DNA from: Pseudomonas sp. stari2
GTDB lineage: Bacteria; Pseudomonadota; Gammaproteobacteria; Pseudomonadales; Pseudomonadaceae
DNA: 64,000 bases
Direction of reading: 5' to 3'
NCBI RefSeq assembly: GCF_040760005.1
Contig: NZ_CP099760.1
Coordinates: forward strand, 1,235,501-1,299,500
Shown here: positions 3,819-9,037 of the stretch, one piece after another
Numbering within the stretch: position 1 is the stretch's first letter
How the letters are laid out: each line of letters begins with the position of its first letter
Made by a program: the position numbers and the translations under genes
The notes under the pieces: model-generated
What the model was told of the DNA's origin: nothing
Seen by the model: the letters and a program-made list of their open reading frames with translations, nothing else
Databases searched by the model: none

Positions 3819-4190
3819 TCAGCGGCTGGCGGCGAGGGTGATCGACACCGATTCGGCAAAACGCAAGGCATGCGGCTTGTCGACTTCGACTTCGGCGTAC
3901 AGCACCGATTCGTTGGCCATCACCAGATCCAGCAGCTCCTGGGTCAGGCGTTCGAGCAGCGCGAAACGGTTGCCTTCCACGTGGGCGATGATCGCCTTGG
4001 TGATCGTGCGGTAGTTCAGCGCGTGGTCGATGTCGTTGTCACGCACCGCTTCCTGCGCGGCGTACAGGATGGTCAGGTTGATCAGCACATCCTGCTTGTT
4101 GAGGATTTCCTCCTCGTTGATCCCGATAAAGGTGCGCAGGCGCAGATCCTTGACCCGGATGCGCGCCATTCCCGGTTGAAGTTGTGGCAT
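3819..4190 (-). CDS. folX: Dihydroneopterin triphosphate 2'-epimerase FolX
   Basis: The 123-residue protein belongs to the FolB/FolX fold: [19 protein letters not shown] near the start, [13 protein letters not shown] in the centre and [15 protein letters not shown]. FolX epimerises dihydroneopterin triphosphate to dihydromonapterin triphosphate. Its position directly after folE and folM favours FolX over the folate enzyme FolB. Its ATG at 4190 abuts the stop of folE with no spacer, so it is probably translated by coupling. Together the three genes make tetrahydromonapterin, the cofactor for phenylalanine hydroxylase in pseudomonads. Confidence 0.93.
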
Positions 4191-4751
4191 TTACTTGCTC
4201 CGTCCAATCAATTGCAGGAACTCCTGGCGGGTGTTGCTCGACTCGCGGAAGGCGCCGAGCATGACCGAGGTGTTCATGGTCGAATTCTGTTTCTCGACAC
4301 CGCGCATCATCATGCACATGTGCCGGGCTTCGATGACCACCGCGACACCGGCGGCATCGGTGACTTGCTGGACCGCCTCGGCGATCTGTCGGGTGAGGTT
4401 TTCCTGGATCTGCAGGCGGCGGGCGAACATGTCCACCAGCCGTGCGATCTTCGACAGTCCCAGTACCTTGCCCGTCGGAATATAAGCCACATGGGCCTTG
4501 CCGATGAAGGGCAGCAGGTGATGTTCGCACAACGAATAGAGCTCGATGTCGGCGACGATGATCATCTCGTCGGTGTCGGAGGCAAACAGCGCGCCATTGA
4601 CGATTTCCTCGACGCTCTGTTCGTAGCCGTGACACAGGTACTGCATGGCCTTGGCCGCCCGCACCGGGGTGTCGAGCAATCCTTCGCGGTCAGGGTCTTC
4701 ACCGAGACCGATCAGGATCTCGCGGTAACTCTCGGGCAGGGAACGGGTCAT
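4191..4751 (-). CDS. folE: GTP cyclohydrolase I, zinc-dependent type
   Basis: This 186-residue enzyme converts GTP to 7,8-dihydroneopterin triphosphate. The zinc ligands of the type I enzyme are visible: Cys75 and His78 in SLCEHHLLP and Cys146 in [13 protein letters not shown]. The [19 protein letters not shown] and [12 protein letters not shown] blocks are canonical. It is the middle gene of folM-folE-folX and follows folM by 21 bp. In P. putida a folE gene is reported to be light-inducible; whether this copy is the equivalent is inference. Confidence 0.96.
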
Positions 4752-4772: not shown

Positions 4773-5483
4773 TTACTTGACGTGCCGCCCGCCGTTGACG
4801 GTCAGGGTCGTGCCGGTGACGTAAGGGTTGTCGAGCAGATAACGCAGGCTCTGATAAATCACTTCGCTGCCGGGTTCGATGCCCAGTGCGGACTTGGCCA
4901 GCGCCTTGGCGCGGTACGCTGCGTCGTCGTCGGGATTGAACAATAGCAGGGCTGGCGCGATGCCGTTGACCTTGATTGAGGGCGCGTAGCGCGCGGCGAA
5001 GGACAGCGTGAGACTGTCGAGCCCGGCCTTGCTGGCGCAATAGCCGATGTGTTTGCTGCTGCCCTTGCGGGTGACGTCGTCGCTGATATGGATGATGTCG
5101 GCGGGGTTCGAGCGTTGCAGCAGGCCGGCGCAATGCAGGTTGATCAGGTACGGCGCCAGCATGTGAACGTTAAACATGCGGCAGAAGGCTTCGGCTTCGC
5201 CGTCGTCGGTTTCCGCCAGCCACTGTGAGGCATTGTGCACGATGGCGCGCAGGCTGTCGGTGTGGGTCTTCAGTTCGGTAATGAACGCGAGGATCGAGGC
5301 TTCGCTGGAAAAGTCCGCGTGCAGCCCGAGGGCGCCCAGATCCCGCAAAGCCTTCACTCCCGGTCGTTCGCTGCGATAGGTGAAGATCACTCGATGGCCG
5401 TCGTCCAGCAGACGCTGCGCACAATGCAGGCCGACCCGCTGGCCGGCGCCGGTGATGAGGATGGGAGCTGTGGGAAAAGTCAT
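4773..5483 (-). CDS. folM: Dihydromonapterin reductase FolM (SDR)
   Basis: The 236-residue short-chain dehydrogenase has the cofactor motif ITGAGQRVG near residue 10, then VHNAS, catalytic Ser in IISDD-like IIHISDD, and YCASK with the catalytic Tyr and Lys. It ends in the family-typical TTLTVNGGRHVK. FolM reduces dihydromonapterin to tetrahydromonapterin with NADPH. It is the first gene of the operon, so the promoter lies just upstream (see 5489-5532). Context with folE and folX makes the assignment firmer than sequence alone would. Confidence 0.93.
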   Translation of the reverse strand: MTFPTAPILITGAGQRVGLHCAQRLLDDGHRVIFTYRSERPGVKALRDLGALGLHADFSSEASILAFITELKTHTDSLRAIVHNASQWLAETDDGEAEAFCRMFNVHMLAPYLINLHCAGLLQRSNPADIIHISDDVTRKGSSKHIGYCASKAGLDSLTLSFAARYAPSIKVNGIAPALLLFNPDDDAAYRAKALAKSALGIEPGSEVIYQSLRYLLDNPYVTGTTLTVNGGRHVK

Positions 5484-5488
5484 GTACG

Positions 5489-5532
5489 GCTCGCGTCGAA
5501 GTCAGAGCAAAAACTATAACAGCGACGCGAGC
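5489..5532 (-). promoter_or_regulatory. folM upstream region: TATAGT -10 inside a 10-bp inverted repeat
   Basis: On the minus strand a TATAGT hexamer (5519-5514) could be the -10 element for folM. It sits between the arms of a perfect inverted repeat: GCTCGCGTCG at 5489-5498 and CGACGCGAGC at 5523-5532, 24 bp apart. One arm would lie near or after the start of transcription and the other near the -35. That suggests an operator rather than an RNA hairpin, but this is inference. Confidence 0.4.
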
Positions 5533-5539
5533 GACGGCT

Positions 5540-6109
5540 TCAGCGATTTTGCGTAGAGGGCGCGGCGGGCAGCGGGCGCGCAGGCGCCGGGTTGAGCCAG
5601 CCGGCCAGCAGGCGGGTCGACAGCGGAATGAAGAAGTAGACCATCAACGGGGTCAGGCACAGCGTGCTGACGAAGACCCTCGGCAACAGGCTCATTTCAG
5701 CGAGCAGCGGCCCCAGCACGAAATTGAACAGCAGCGACACCGGGAAGAACGCCAGCCAGATTGCCACGGCCTGTTTCCAGCGCTGGGGGCGATGACCGGC
5801 AGCGCCGAACCAGCCTTCAATGCCGCTGACCCGATGTTCCGTCGGGTGGGCAAACAGATCGCTGCCACGGGCCAGCCATGCGGTGCGCGATGCCGAGTGT
5901 TCCCAGGCATGCAGGGTCTGTTCGTCGACGAAGCGGAATATGATCTGGAATTCATCGTCGCCGGGAGGCGGGGCCAGTACGCCGGAGCCGAGGTAACCGG
6001 GGAAGTCGGTGGCCAGTTGTTCGCCTTCTCGCAACCAGGCGATCAGATCCTGATAACGACCATTGGTGACGCGACGCGCGACCATCAGCGTGACGGGGGA
6101 AGTAGACAT
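5540..6109 (-). CDS. Antibiotic biosynthesis monooxygenase (ABM)-like membrane protein
   Basis: This 189-residue protein has an N-terminal ABM ferredoxin-like domain (residues about 5-100: MVARRVTNGRYQDLIAWL, FPGYLGSGVL, FQIIFRF, LHAWEHSASR). Two hydrophobic membrane segments follow (about 112-135 and 142-168) and then a Pro/Ala-rich tail. ABM domains act in small-molecule or haem oxidation, but the membrane-anchored subfamily has no assigned reaction. It is divergent from the LitR-like regulator at 6281 and lies upstream of folM on the same strand, suggesting it belongs to the light-related neighbourhood. Confidence 0.78.
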   Translation of the reverse strand: MSTSPVTLMVARRVTNGRYQDLIAWLREGEQLATDFPGYLGSGVLAPPPGDDEFQIIFRFVDEQTLHAWEHSASRTAWLARGSDLFAHPTEHRVSGIEGWFGAAGHRPQRWKQAVAIWLAFFPVSLLFNFVLGPLLAEMSLLPRVFVSTLCLTPLMVYFFIPLSTRLLAGWLNPAPARPLPAAPSTQNR

Positions 6110-6280
6110 TGTGTATCTCCGTATTGCATTGCGTCGCTCCGGGTAGGAGTTTCGCCTGACGCAGCGCCGGGTAGAGGGCTGCGTTTTTCGACAAGCAAGG
6201 ATTATTCCTCATCTGCGTGACAAACCAGAGACTTTCGTCTCATTTCACCGCTTGAACCGCTCAATGGCATCCGGAGTAGA

Positions 6281-7288
6281 ATGGGATCCACTACGCTCAC
6301 ACTCGCTAACGAGGACGTACCCGCGCAAATGCCTGTCATGACTGACGTTCGTCCTGCTTTCCCGGCCTCTGTTGCGCTGGAGCGCGAAGAGCTTTTCCCT
6401 ATCCGCGAAGTAGCGCGGCTGACCGGCGTGAACCCGGTTACGCTGCGCGCCTGGGAGCGTCGCTACGGTTTGATCCAGCCGACACGCACCGAAAGTGGGC
6501 ATCGTTTGTATTCGATGACCGATATCGAGCGCGTTCGCAGCATCGTCGACTGGATCGATCGGGGTGTCGCCGTGAGCAAGATCGGCAGGATTCTGGCCAA
6601 GACCGAGCCGATGAAAGTCCTGGCCCCGTTCATATCCGATGACAGTGTGCAGACGGACTACCTGCAGTGGCAGGAACAGGTTCGGCACGCGGTCGGTTCA
6701 TTCGACGATCAGGCGCTGGATCAGCTCTACGGCCAGATTTTCTCCTCCTATGCATTGCCTGTAGTGTTTCAGGACATCCTGATGCCGTTATGGCTGCAAA
6801 TGTTGCAGCGTCAGGACGCTTTCGGACAAACCAGCGAGTGGCTGTTCTTCGATGGTTTTCTGCGAGCGAAGGTGCTGCAGCGCATCGTCATGCTACGCGG
6901 CTCGCAACCGCGCAAGGTGATCGTCAGCGCACTGGCCGGTCAATGTCGTGAGCTTGAGTTACTGGTGGCGGCGCTGTTTCTCAGCGGCAATGACGCGGGT
7001 GTTCGTGTACTCACCACCGGCCAGCCGTTCGATGAACTGACGCTGGTGTGCGAAAAGACCAGGCCTCAGGCGCTGGTGCTGTTTTCCAATCATGCGCCGA
7101 CTGCAGAGCTGCCACGACGTCTGAATCGTCTGGCCTTGAGTCTGGATTGTCAGTTGATGCTGGCGGGCGATGCCGCCGATCTGGCGCAGGACAGCCTCGC
7201 CGGATCAGCGGTCGGCTGCCTGGGCAATGAAGGATCGACCATGCGTCAACGCATGAATCGGTTTCTGGCGGGGACGCTGGATACCTGA
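6281..7288 (+). CDS. MerR-family regulator, LitR/CarH-like without the cobalamin histidine motif
   Basis: The 335-residue protein has a MerR winged-helix domain at about residues 38-108 (FPIREVARLTGVNPVTLRAW, ERRYGLIQPTRTESGHRLYS). A helical-plus-Rossmann region follows that matches the CarH/LitR effector domain. In cobalamin-binding class I members a D/E-x-H-x-x-G loop supplies the cobalt ligand. Here the equivalent loop, residues 219-227, reads AGQCRELEL and lacks the histidine. That fits the B12-independent class II LitR proteins (PplR type) that work with a LOV protein in P. putida. GGAG sits 4 nt before ATG 6281; starts at codons 17 and 20 are possible alternatives. Confidence 0.82.
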   Translation: MGSTTLTLANEDVPAQMPVMTDVRPAFPASVALEREELFPIREVARLTGVNPVTLRAWERRYGLIQPTRTESGHRLYSMTDIERVRSIVDWIDRGVAVSKIGRILAKTEPMKVLAPFISDDSVQTDYLQWQEQVRHAVGSFDDQALDQLYGQIFSSYALPVVFQDILMPLWLQMLQRQDAFGQTSEWLFFDGFLRAKVLQRIVMLRGSQPRKVIVSALAGQCRELELLVAALFLSGNDAGVRVLTTGQPFDELTLVCEKTRPQALVLFSNHAPTAELPRRLNRLALSLDCQLMLAGDAADLAQDSLAGSAVGCLGNEGSTMRQRMNRFLAGTLDT

Positions 7289-7291
7289 GAC

Positions 7292-7897
7292 TCAGGTGTG
7301 CATGGCAGGGTGGGTCAGACGATGCTGTTGCAGGATGAACTGGCGCAGACGCTCGGTTTCGTCGGCATCGCTCTGACTTAGCTCGTAAGCATAAAAGCCG
7401 CTTTCGGTTTCCCGCTCGAACGTCCCGCGCAGGGAAATCCGCTCGTAGCCCGACGGGCTGAACCACAAGGCAAAATGCTTCGGTGGTTTGGTCTTGTTGC
7501 GCACTTCCAGCAGCACACCCTTGTGCGAAACCTCGTGAACCCACAGCGTACCGGGCTGGCCCTTGGCATTTTCCAGTGCCACCGGCTCTTCCAGGGTCAG
7601 GCGCCATGGACGCACCATCGGTCCGTCTTCATAGATGCTCGGTACACCCAGGCGCAGGTGCAGGGCGTGGAACTCGTCTTCCACCAGATGCAACGGGAAG
7701 GTCATCTGCTGATTTTCGAAGTTGGCCTGGATGGTGACTTGTTCATGGGCCGCCAGGCGCGTGAGCAGGTCACGGATCTGCGAACCACCGTTGACCAGCA
7801 GGCTCGACGTCGCATCCCGCACATTGAGCTGCGGGTTGTGTTGCATGGTCTGGATAAAATCCAGCTCGTCCTGGGTCAGGAGGGTGTCGCGTTGCAT
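7292..7897 (-). CDS. PilZ-like domain protein downstream of the LOV gene
   Basis: The 201-residue protein starts MQRDTLLTQDELDFIQTMQH, then has a YcgR-N-like beta region. A C-terminal PilZ-like segment at about residues 110-190 includes RPWRLTLEEPV and HEVSHKGVLLEVRNK. The second resembles the D/N-x-S-x-x-G c-di-GMP motif with Glu in the first position, so nucleotide binding is uncertain. I preferred ATG 7897 to the GTG at 7951, which directly follows the LOV stop codon. It lies 54 bp after the LOV gene on the same strand, a probable two-gene operon, and its end nearly meets the convergent LitR-like gene. Confidence 0.7.
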   Translation of the reverse strand: MQRDTLLTQDELDFIQTMQHNPQLNVRDATSSLLVNGGSQIRDLLTRLAAHEQVTIQANFENQQMTFPLHLVEDEFHALHLRLGVPSIYEDGPMVRPWRLTLEEPVALENAKGQPGTLWVHEVSHKGVLLEVRNKTKPPKHFALWFSPSGYERISLRGTFERETESGFYAYELSQSDADETERLRQFILQQHRLTHPAMHT

Positions 7898-7951
7898 GGC
7901 TAGCTCGAAATAAATAATTACAAAGTCATTGGTGATTGTAGTTAATGACAC

Positions 7952-8428
7952 TTAGTTCGCTGTTTTGTTTGCGCCGTTCGTCGCTTTGATGGCCGCCAGT
8001 TCTGCCTCGAGTGCCGCGACTTGGGCTTCCAGCTGCGCCACCCGCTGCTGCGCCTTGACCTGAACGGTCACGTCCTTTTGCACGCCGACGAAGTACGTCT
8101 GTCCATCGTCAGCATTTTTTACCGTTGATAGCGACAGCTCGTTCCAGAACGGTGTGCCGTCCTTGCGATAGTTGCGCAGGATCTCGCGGCATGAGCCGCC
8201 GTTTCTCAATACGCCGCGAATCAATTCCAGACTGGGCTGATCGCGATCTCCGGCCTGCAGGAAACGGCAGTCCTGATAAAGAATTTCTTCACTGGTATAG
8301 CCAGTCAGTTTTTCGAAAGCAGGATTCACGTAAATCAGAATGTTGTCCTGATCGCCTTCCTTTTCCGCCACCACGATTCCATCGTTCGACGCGTTGATCA
8401 CCATTTGCAGCAGGCTGGCATTGATCAT
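7952..8428 (-). CDS. Short LOV blue-light photoreceptor
   Basis: This 158-residue protein is one PAS/LOV domain with a C-terminal helix and no output domain. The photoactive cysteine is Cys54 in YQDCRFLQ. The flavin contacts Asn86 and Asn96 (RNYRKDGTPFWNEL) and Gln117 (FVGVQKDV) fall exactly one residue later than in P. putida PpSB1-LOV. A predicted coiled coil rich in Ala, Glu and Val (about residues 125-150) may dimerise it. Arg62 (PpSB1 Arg61) is kept, but PpSB1 Arg66, linked to very slow dark reversion, is Leu67 here. AAGGGA precedes the start. It is likely cotranscribed with the PilZ-like gene. Confidence 0.93.
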   Translation of the reverse strand: MINASLLQMVINASNDGIVVAEKEGDQDNILIYVNPAFEKLTGYTSEEILYQDCRFLQAGDRDQPSLELIRGVLRNGGSCREILRNYRKDGTPFWNELSLSTVKNADDGQTYFVGVQKDVTVQVKAQQRVAQLEAQVAALEAELAAIKATNGANKTAN

Positions 8429-8581
8429 CTTTGAATCCCTTCAGGGTTGTCGGTGGCAGGCATTCTAGAAGATCGATTGGCGCTGTCTACTGGCCATCAG
8501 CGCTTATCGAGAGCCAATCGCAACAGGGCGTCGCTGGCTGTTACTATCGCCGCTCTTTTTTTCAGTTTCAGGATCAGATTG

Positions 8582-9037
8582 ATGAAAGTCGCCATCCTCT
8601 CCGGCTCGGTGTACGGCACGGCCGAAGAAGTCGCTCGCCACGCTCAGAGCCTGTTGAACGCCGCCGGTTTTGAAACCTTCTACAACTCGCGCGCCAGCCT
8701 CGCCGATCTCCAGACTTTCGGCCCCGAGGCCTTGCTCGCCGTGACTTCGACCACCGGCATGGGCGAGTTGCCGGACAACCTGCAACCGCTGTACTCGAGC
8801 ATTCGCGACCAGTTGCCGGCGGCCTGGCGCGGTTTGCCCGGCGCAGTGATCGCCTTGGGCGACGCCAGTTACGGTGACACGTTCTGTGGCGGTGGCGAGC
8901 AGATGCGTGAATTGTTCAGTGAGCTGGGCGTGCGTGAAGTTCAGGACATGCTGCGTATTGACGCCAGCGAAAGCGTCACCCCGGAAACCGACGCGGAGCC
9001 ATGGCTCGAGCAGTTGATCGCCACGCTCAAGGGCTGA
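8582..9037 (+). CDS. mioC: MioC-like flavodoxin
   Basis: This 151-residue protein has the flavodoxin phosphate-binding loop SGSVYGTAEEVA near the N-terminus. The VTSTTGMGELPDNLQPLY and GDASYGDTFCGGGEQMRELF segments are those of MioC/sulfite-reductase-type flavodoxins. It binds FMN and transfers electrons; the physiological partner is unknown. ATG 8582 is preceded by AGGATCAG. It is divergent from the LOV gene (153-bp spacer), and its last 11 bp overlap the end of the convergent LysR gene. Confidence 0.87.
   Translation: MKVAILSGSVYGTAEEVARHAQSLLNAAGFETFYNSRASLADLQTFGPEALLAVTSTTGMGELPDNLQPLYSSIRDQLPAAWRGLPGAVIALGDASYGDTFCGGGEQMRELFSELGVREVQDMLRIDASESVTPETDAEPWLEQLIATLKG

Follow-up and report, generated by a model that had tools for sequence, protein, structure and literature searches.

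Which genes does the blue-light switch of Pseudomonas sp. stari2 control, and are the genes beside it among them? The question is raised by a stretch of 64,000 nucleotides of this soil bacterium (the window), in which the genes for a short LOV photoreceptor, a LitR-like regulator of the MerR family (litR2), a PilZ-like protein and an ABM-domain protein lie next to the tetrahydromonapterin genes folM, folE and folX; this gene set had been proposed in an earlier note made from the letters alone, and it was confirmed here. The genes, the operators and the inheritance pattern reported below were established in this analysis. The explanation that we favour, with reasonable confidence, is that the locus represents the sensor half of a switch formed by a class II LitR regulator and a short LOV protein, with its targets located at a distance, a fol operon that has been disconnected from it, and a PilZ-like gene that is inherited separately.

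Similar loci have been described in other pseudomonads. The P. mendocina locus includes folX, folE, folM, the hypothetical gene PME15555, pmlR2, PME15565 and the LOV gene, so that there also a class II LitR gene is found near a short LOV gene, and the LOV protein functions as an anti-repressor: its direct effector is PmlR2, the class II LitR protein encoded by its neighbour, which lit PmSB-LOV binds and keeps from DNA in surface plasmon resonance (SPR) experiments, lifting repression in vitro (PMC9758184). The folM promoter is among the DNA that PmlR2 binds, and light induces folM about 2.4-fold and folE 1.6- to 3.3-fold (PMC9758184). The main text of this article calls the pmlR2-PME15565-LOV cluster conserved in Pseudomonas, leaves PME15565 unannotated and uses neither the word PilZ nor c-di-GMP (PMC9758184); given its number between pmlR2 and LOV, PME15565 should be the PilZ-like gene. 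A LOV-dependent class II LitR regulon also exists in P. putida KT2440, with PplR1-3 and PpSB1- and PpSB2-LOV, and as summarised in the same source it contains phrB, ufaM, cryB and folE (PMC9758184). KT2440 has three PplR proteins and two short LOV proteins, whereas the genome studied here has one LitR2-type regulator, one LitR1-type regulator and one short LOV protein.

The LOV protein of the window carries Cys54, Asn86, Asn96 and Gln117, that is, the complete flavin site that had been read from its translation. It matches PAS_9 of Pfam (4.6e-22) and, under that model's cut-off, the YtvA family of NCBIfam (2.6e-41), and it has no fused effector domain: along its 158 amino acids the Pfam cut-off is exceeded by PAS families only. 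Judged by its sequence, the protein qualifies as a short LOV photoreceptor for which flavin binding and a photocycle are predicted. LitR2 matches MerR_1 of Pfam (1.2e-16); its best NCBIfam match is MlrA (7.8e-24), and the CarH model is matched over positions 37-299 (4.3e-20), both matches being partial and under the cut-off. Pfam gave no match to a B12-binding domain in LitR2 at E ≤ 1, and neither of the cobalamin histidine motifs, E/D-x-H-x-x-G and W-x9-EH, was found in it; the four-helix B12-binding_2 domain is not matched by LitR2 and is matched by LitR1 of the same genome (1.8e-7). The description of this protein as a MerR/LitR regulator without the cobalamin motif is thus borne out. Its conserved start is the ATG at 6329 and not that at 6281, as judged from 24 upstream rows of 20 genomes, the window included. 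Upstream of it, at 6252-6289, there is a TTGAA-N19-TAGAATGGGATCC block that is largely conserved across 20 genomes; it looks like a long-spacer promoter of the MerR type, and could indicate autoregulation of litR2.

The inheritance of these genes was followed in samples of 149 genomes of the genus and 119 genomes of the family, five genomes being common to both. We set the cut-offs ourselves: in the genus, a best E value of at most 2.9e-47 for short LOV (the next was 3.6e-30) and of at most 3.1e-57 for the LitR2 type (the next was 4.1e-43), the latter value also admitting four genomes in which LOV is found elsewhere, next to a LitR that is more distant; in the family, at least 137 bits for LOV and at least 177 bits for LitR. 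Since the genomes are related and five occur in both samples, the p values given below overstate independence. In the genus sample, 131 genomes have both short LOV and a LitR2-type regulator, two have LOV only, none has LitR only, and 16 have neither; the corresponding family counts are 68, 10, 0 and 41, and the starts of LOV and LitR are at most 6 kb apart in 66 of the 68 family-sample pairs (56 of 57 outside the own genus). The PilZ-like gene follows a different pattern: the genus sample includes 128 genomes with LOV and PilZ, five with LOV only, 14 with PilZ only and two with neither (p=0.17), and the family sample 29, 49, 5 and 36, with starts at most 6 kb apart in 15 of the 29 pairs (4 of 18 outside the own genus). 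From these co-occurrence and linkage counts, LOV and LitR2 are inherited together and PilZ is not tied to them, and the PilZ-like gene looks like a separately inherited neighbour of the LOV-LitR2 pair. That LOV and LitR form one light switch is supported, the biochemistry having been done by others on the homologous P. mendocina pair (PMC9758184); the LOV-PilZ pairing, which the earlier note had singled out as worth testing, finds no support in inheritance as a functional unit. In a search of named genomes, the best 80 of 432 loci are all from Pseudomonas and 90-98% identical, and neither P. mendocina nor KT2440 is among these 80.

Other arrangements were also seen. Four genomes (L176-L179) lack only the PilZ-like gene and keep LOV, LitR2, the flavodoxin gene and an exact folM operator, and in four others (G024, G025, G065, G102) PilZ is kept at the old locus, with LOV and LitR present elsewhere only. 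Short LOV genes located elsewhere in the genome lie close to a copy of folE in L181 and L183 and next to a more distant LitR in L184. Short LOV occurs without a LitR2-type regulator in G091 and G142 (L150 and L149, respectively) and in ten g18 genomes of the family sample.

The operator sought was T(G/A)TACA-N12-TGTA(C/T)A, a consensus defined with PplR1 and PmlR2 that may not be LitR2's own. No match with up to three mismatches is present at window positions 5484-5539, 6110-6328 or 8429-8581, in agreement with the earlier statement that the local promoters carry no PplR-type operator; a consensus operator at these promoters was rejected. The whole window contains 35 operator-like matches at this threshold, each with two or three mismatches, as compared with a mean of 16.3 in shuffles of the window, none of 100 reaching 35; given that the matches placed near the locus fall inside genes, codon usage may explain this excess.

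In relatives, a TGTACA-N12-GGTATA element overlaps the extended -10 core upstream of folM. This element is exact in 22 of 122 folM regions and has one mismatch in 11, two in 13 and more in 76, in a set that includes hits of about 43% identity, taken as folM, that are probably other reductases. Dropping these hits leaves 89 regions, which come from 88 genomes since one is represented twice, and nine of which lack the core. Of the remaining 80 cores, 25 have an exact left arm at the 12-bp spacing, as against 0.1% of the 2800 windows taken at other spacings. Likewise, the general consensus with up to two mismatches is found in 35 of 113 folM regions versus 0 of 113 reversed ones. The folM promoter of P. 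mendocina carries the operator (PMC9758184); in contrast, that of the window keeps the core CTGTTATAGTTTT and has lost the left arm, which matches at 0 of 6 bases. Because the left arm is gone, the link of fol to light has probably been lost in this genome, wholly or largely. Among other loci, the left arm matches at 0 of 6 bases in L206 and L207, 1 of 6 in L209 and 4 of 6 in L208; as 20 of the 80 cores show no matching base, its decay reaches beyond the clade of the window. The proposed connection between blue light and pterin supply therefore stands for P. mendocina, and likely for relatives that keep the folM operator, and probably fails here. Two genomes (L120, L121) keep a perfect folM operator without short LOV and a LitR2-type regulator, and their operator is presumably read by LitR1.

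It could be argued that the ABM-folM-folE-folX genes next door are under the control of LitR2 and LOV in this genome, by way of a site that is divergent or departs from the consensus, and that light would drive pterin supply as the induction of folM and folE and the binding of PmlR2 in P. mendocina suggest (PMC9758184); the 33 of 122 regions in which the folM operator is exact or has a single mismatch, and the conserved block upstream of litR2, which faces ABM, are consistent with this idea. We consider it doubtful, given the lack of any match with up to three mismatches upstream of fol, ABM and litR2 in the window and the missing folM left arm. Moreover, with up to two mismatches, the upstream regions of ABM (2 of 125 versus 3 of 125), litR2 (5 of 124 versus 3 of 124) and LOV (0 of 129 versus 0 of 129) give matches near those of the reversed control. 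Upstream of PilZ, operator-like matches with two mismatches were found in 6 of 142 regions versus two reversed.

Perfect operators were found elsewhere in the genome, four in all, which favours the earlier guess that the targets could lie away from the locus. Two of them form a tandem upstream of rudS (L020 8128-8201), at distances of 22 bp and 72 bp from its start; rudS encodes a protein with 2-thiour_desulf and DUF1722 domains, of the tRNA 4-thiouridine (s4U) desulfidase family, and downstream of it come litR1, phrB and other genes as far as a cyclopropane-synthase-like gene. An operon with PhrB, LitR and RudS has been linked to light control (PMC11417400). A third perfect operator lies 86 bp before an open reading frame (ORF) for a DPRP photolyase-related protein. 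In addition, a one-mismatch site, TGTACA-N12-GGTATA, precedes by 126 bp an epimerase gene, which in turn is followed by a ferrochelatase gene. From these positions we infer the target genes of the switch in this genome.

The gene between LOV and litR2 had been described as PilZ-like and placed 54 bp behind LOV. It is on the same strand as LOV, and this distance holds because the conserved start is the ATG at 7897 (Met19), although the ORF extends back to 7951. The window protein itself has no Pfam match, and PF07238 is matched by 21 of the 42 members of its orthologue alignment (best 1.6e-7). The structure model shows a PilZ barrel with a fold like that of MrkH, YcgR and MotI; since the N-terminal half of the model is weak and the full-length Foldseek matches to YcgR and MotI have a root-mean-square deviation of 15-17, only the barrel is claimed, and with this restriction the protein is modelled as having a PilZ fold. 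Searches of PDB sequences with the PilZ alignment and one divergent member gave no matches. As compared with MrkH, YcgR, Alg44 and MotI, the protein has Val113 where the first Arg of the RxxxR motif is expected, an invariant Arg114-x-Trp116-Arg117 (the non-canonical RPWR motif), and Glu140 in place of Asp/Asn, so that [D/N]xSxxG reads E140-V-S142-H-K-G145. Both signatures of c-di-GMP-binding PilZ proteins, RxxxR and [D/N]xSxxG, are thus missing from the window protein. In 139 of 142 rows (three with gaps at the motif were excluded), R113 and R117 occur together in only five, D/NxSxxG in 19 and ExSxxG in 107.

This gene opens the possibility that LOV has two outputs, LitR2 and its operon partner PilZ, with surface behaviour or motility likewise responding to blue light. 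The 54-bp gap and the PilZ fold speak for it, and so do two observations that weigh against separate inheritance: LOV adjoins the PilZ-like gene in 123 of the 141 genus loci bearing PilZ, and their co-occurrence in the family sample is somewhat above chance (p=0.005; p=0.02 outside the own genus). LitR2 lies within 2.5 kb of the PilZ-like gene in 118 of these loci. We take PP_4630 of KT2440 to be the LitR gene beside PpSB1-LOV (PP_4629). A lead towards c-di-GMP is that, in a KT2440 background with high c-di-GMP due to extra copies of a diguanylate cyclase gene, a single transposon mutant of the MerR gene PP_4630 no longer showed the crinkly colony form, the flocculation and the gain in biofilm (PMC4951495). 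The main text of that article uses the word light twice, in neither case for a light treatment (PMC4951495), and since the result concerns the regulator, and PilZ is convergent to litR2 here, it is not evidence for a role of PilZ. Against two outputs are also the PilZ-bearing genomes without short LOV (14 in the genus) and the LOV-bearing genomes without PilZ (five in the genus, 49 in the family sample), the lack of linkage in 14 of the 29 family genomes with both, and the retention of RPWR in all 14 LOV-less orthologues of the genus. PilZ as an obligate partner of LOV was rejected on the genus and family counts, a direct LOV-PilZ link is not favoured, and we regard the two-output proposal as unlikely. 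We give very little credence to its most explicit form, in which LOV would bind the PilZ-like protein directly and RPWR would read a ligand or a flagellar partner in a new way, creating a blue-light branch into surface behaviour. The LOV-PilZ pairing is named in none of the titles and abstract openings listed by searches of the open-licence literature, and PilZ, LitR and c-di-GMP are not mentioned in the passages covered of the P. cichorii LOV1 article (PMC11231323).

We return to the switch with distal targets, which we infer to work here as in P. mendocina. In the dark, LitR2 would repress promoters with TGTACA-N12-TGTACA-type operators; blue light would produce a Cys54-flavin mononucleotide (FMN) adduct in LOV, and lit LOV would bind LitR2 and remove it from DNA. 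The likely distal targets would be the rudS-litR1-phrB row and the photolyase-related gene and, as a weaker candidate, the epimerase gene with the ferrochelatase gene behind it. The adjacent fol operon, with the promoter core kept and the left arm lost, would probably no longer be controlled by light, and the PilZ-like gene is perhaps co-transcribed with LOV. Apart from the LOV-PilZ figures given above, several points weigh against this explanation. For P. mendocina, gel shift and SPR give different answers as to the release of the lit complex from DNA (PMC9758184). Of the four perfect sites, one is within the coding sequence of an OprD porin and was taken as chance; the epimerase site coincides with the beginning of a divergent FAD-oxidase-like ORF, a possible alternative target. 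The genome has 15 sites with at most one mismatch versus eight for the control pattern, so that one-mismatch sites are weak and mainly the perfect intergenic ones are trusted. A degenerate site could yet give LitR2 access to the promoter of fol or of ABM.

The features of the locus are collected in Table 1. The ABM gene is present at 121 of the 141 orthologous PilZ-bearing loci of the genus, some of which are short stretches. The flavodoxin gene, whose product matches the MioC model of NCBIfam below its own cut-off, is transcribed divergently from the LOV-PilZ pair, and accompanies the PilZ-like gene without exception, in 141 of 141 genus loci and in 18 of 18 further loci of the family sample. 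It is divergent from LOV-PilZ or from PilZ in all 141 genus loci, the LOV-less ones included.

Table 1. Features of the locus, in window coordinates
Feature	Position	Strand	Evidence or remark
folX, dihydroneopterin triphosphate 2'-epimerase	3819..4190	-	NCBIfam NF008418, 196.8 bits (cut-off 152)
folE, GTP cyclohydrolase I	4191..4751	-	TIGR00063, 256.1 bits (cut-off 181.6)
folM, dihydromonapterin reductase	4773..5483	-	NF005066, 357.4 bits (cut-off 249)
folM promoter region, extended -10 core CTGTTATAGTTTT, operator left arm absent	5484..5543	-	
ABM-domain protein between folM and litR2	5540..6109	-	Pfam PF03992, 1.9e-5
litR2, class II LitR-like MerR regulator without B12 domain	6329..7288	+	ORF opens at 6281; conserved start 6329
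PilZ-like protein, 201 amino acids from conserved ATG	7292..7897	-	ORF opens at 7951; RPWR and ExSxxG motifs
Short LOV photoreceptor, 158 amino acids, Cys54	7952..8428	-	
mioC-like flavodoxin	8582..9037	+	NF004343, 299.1 bits (cut-off 204)

The core of LOV, LitR and fol is already published, and the window is a well conserved example of that switch. This work extends the dependence between LOV and LitR to the two genome samples, and offers an answer to where the operators are located in this genome. A direct output of LOV through PilZ, if true, would concern those lineages of Pseudomonas in which the LOV-PilZ pair has been retained and would be a branch beside the LitR gene switch. What is added here is that light control of the fol operon has apparently been lost with the sensor retained, and that a protein of predicted PilZ fold with a non-canonical, invariant motif is the product of the conserved gene lying between those for LOV and LitR.

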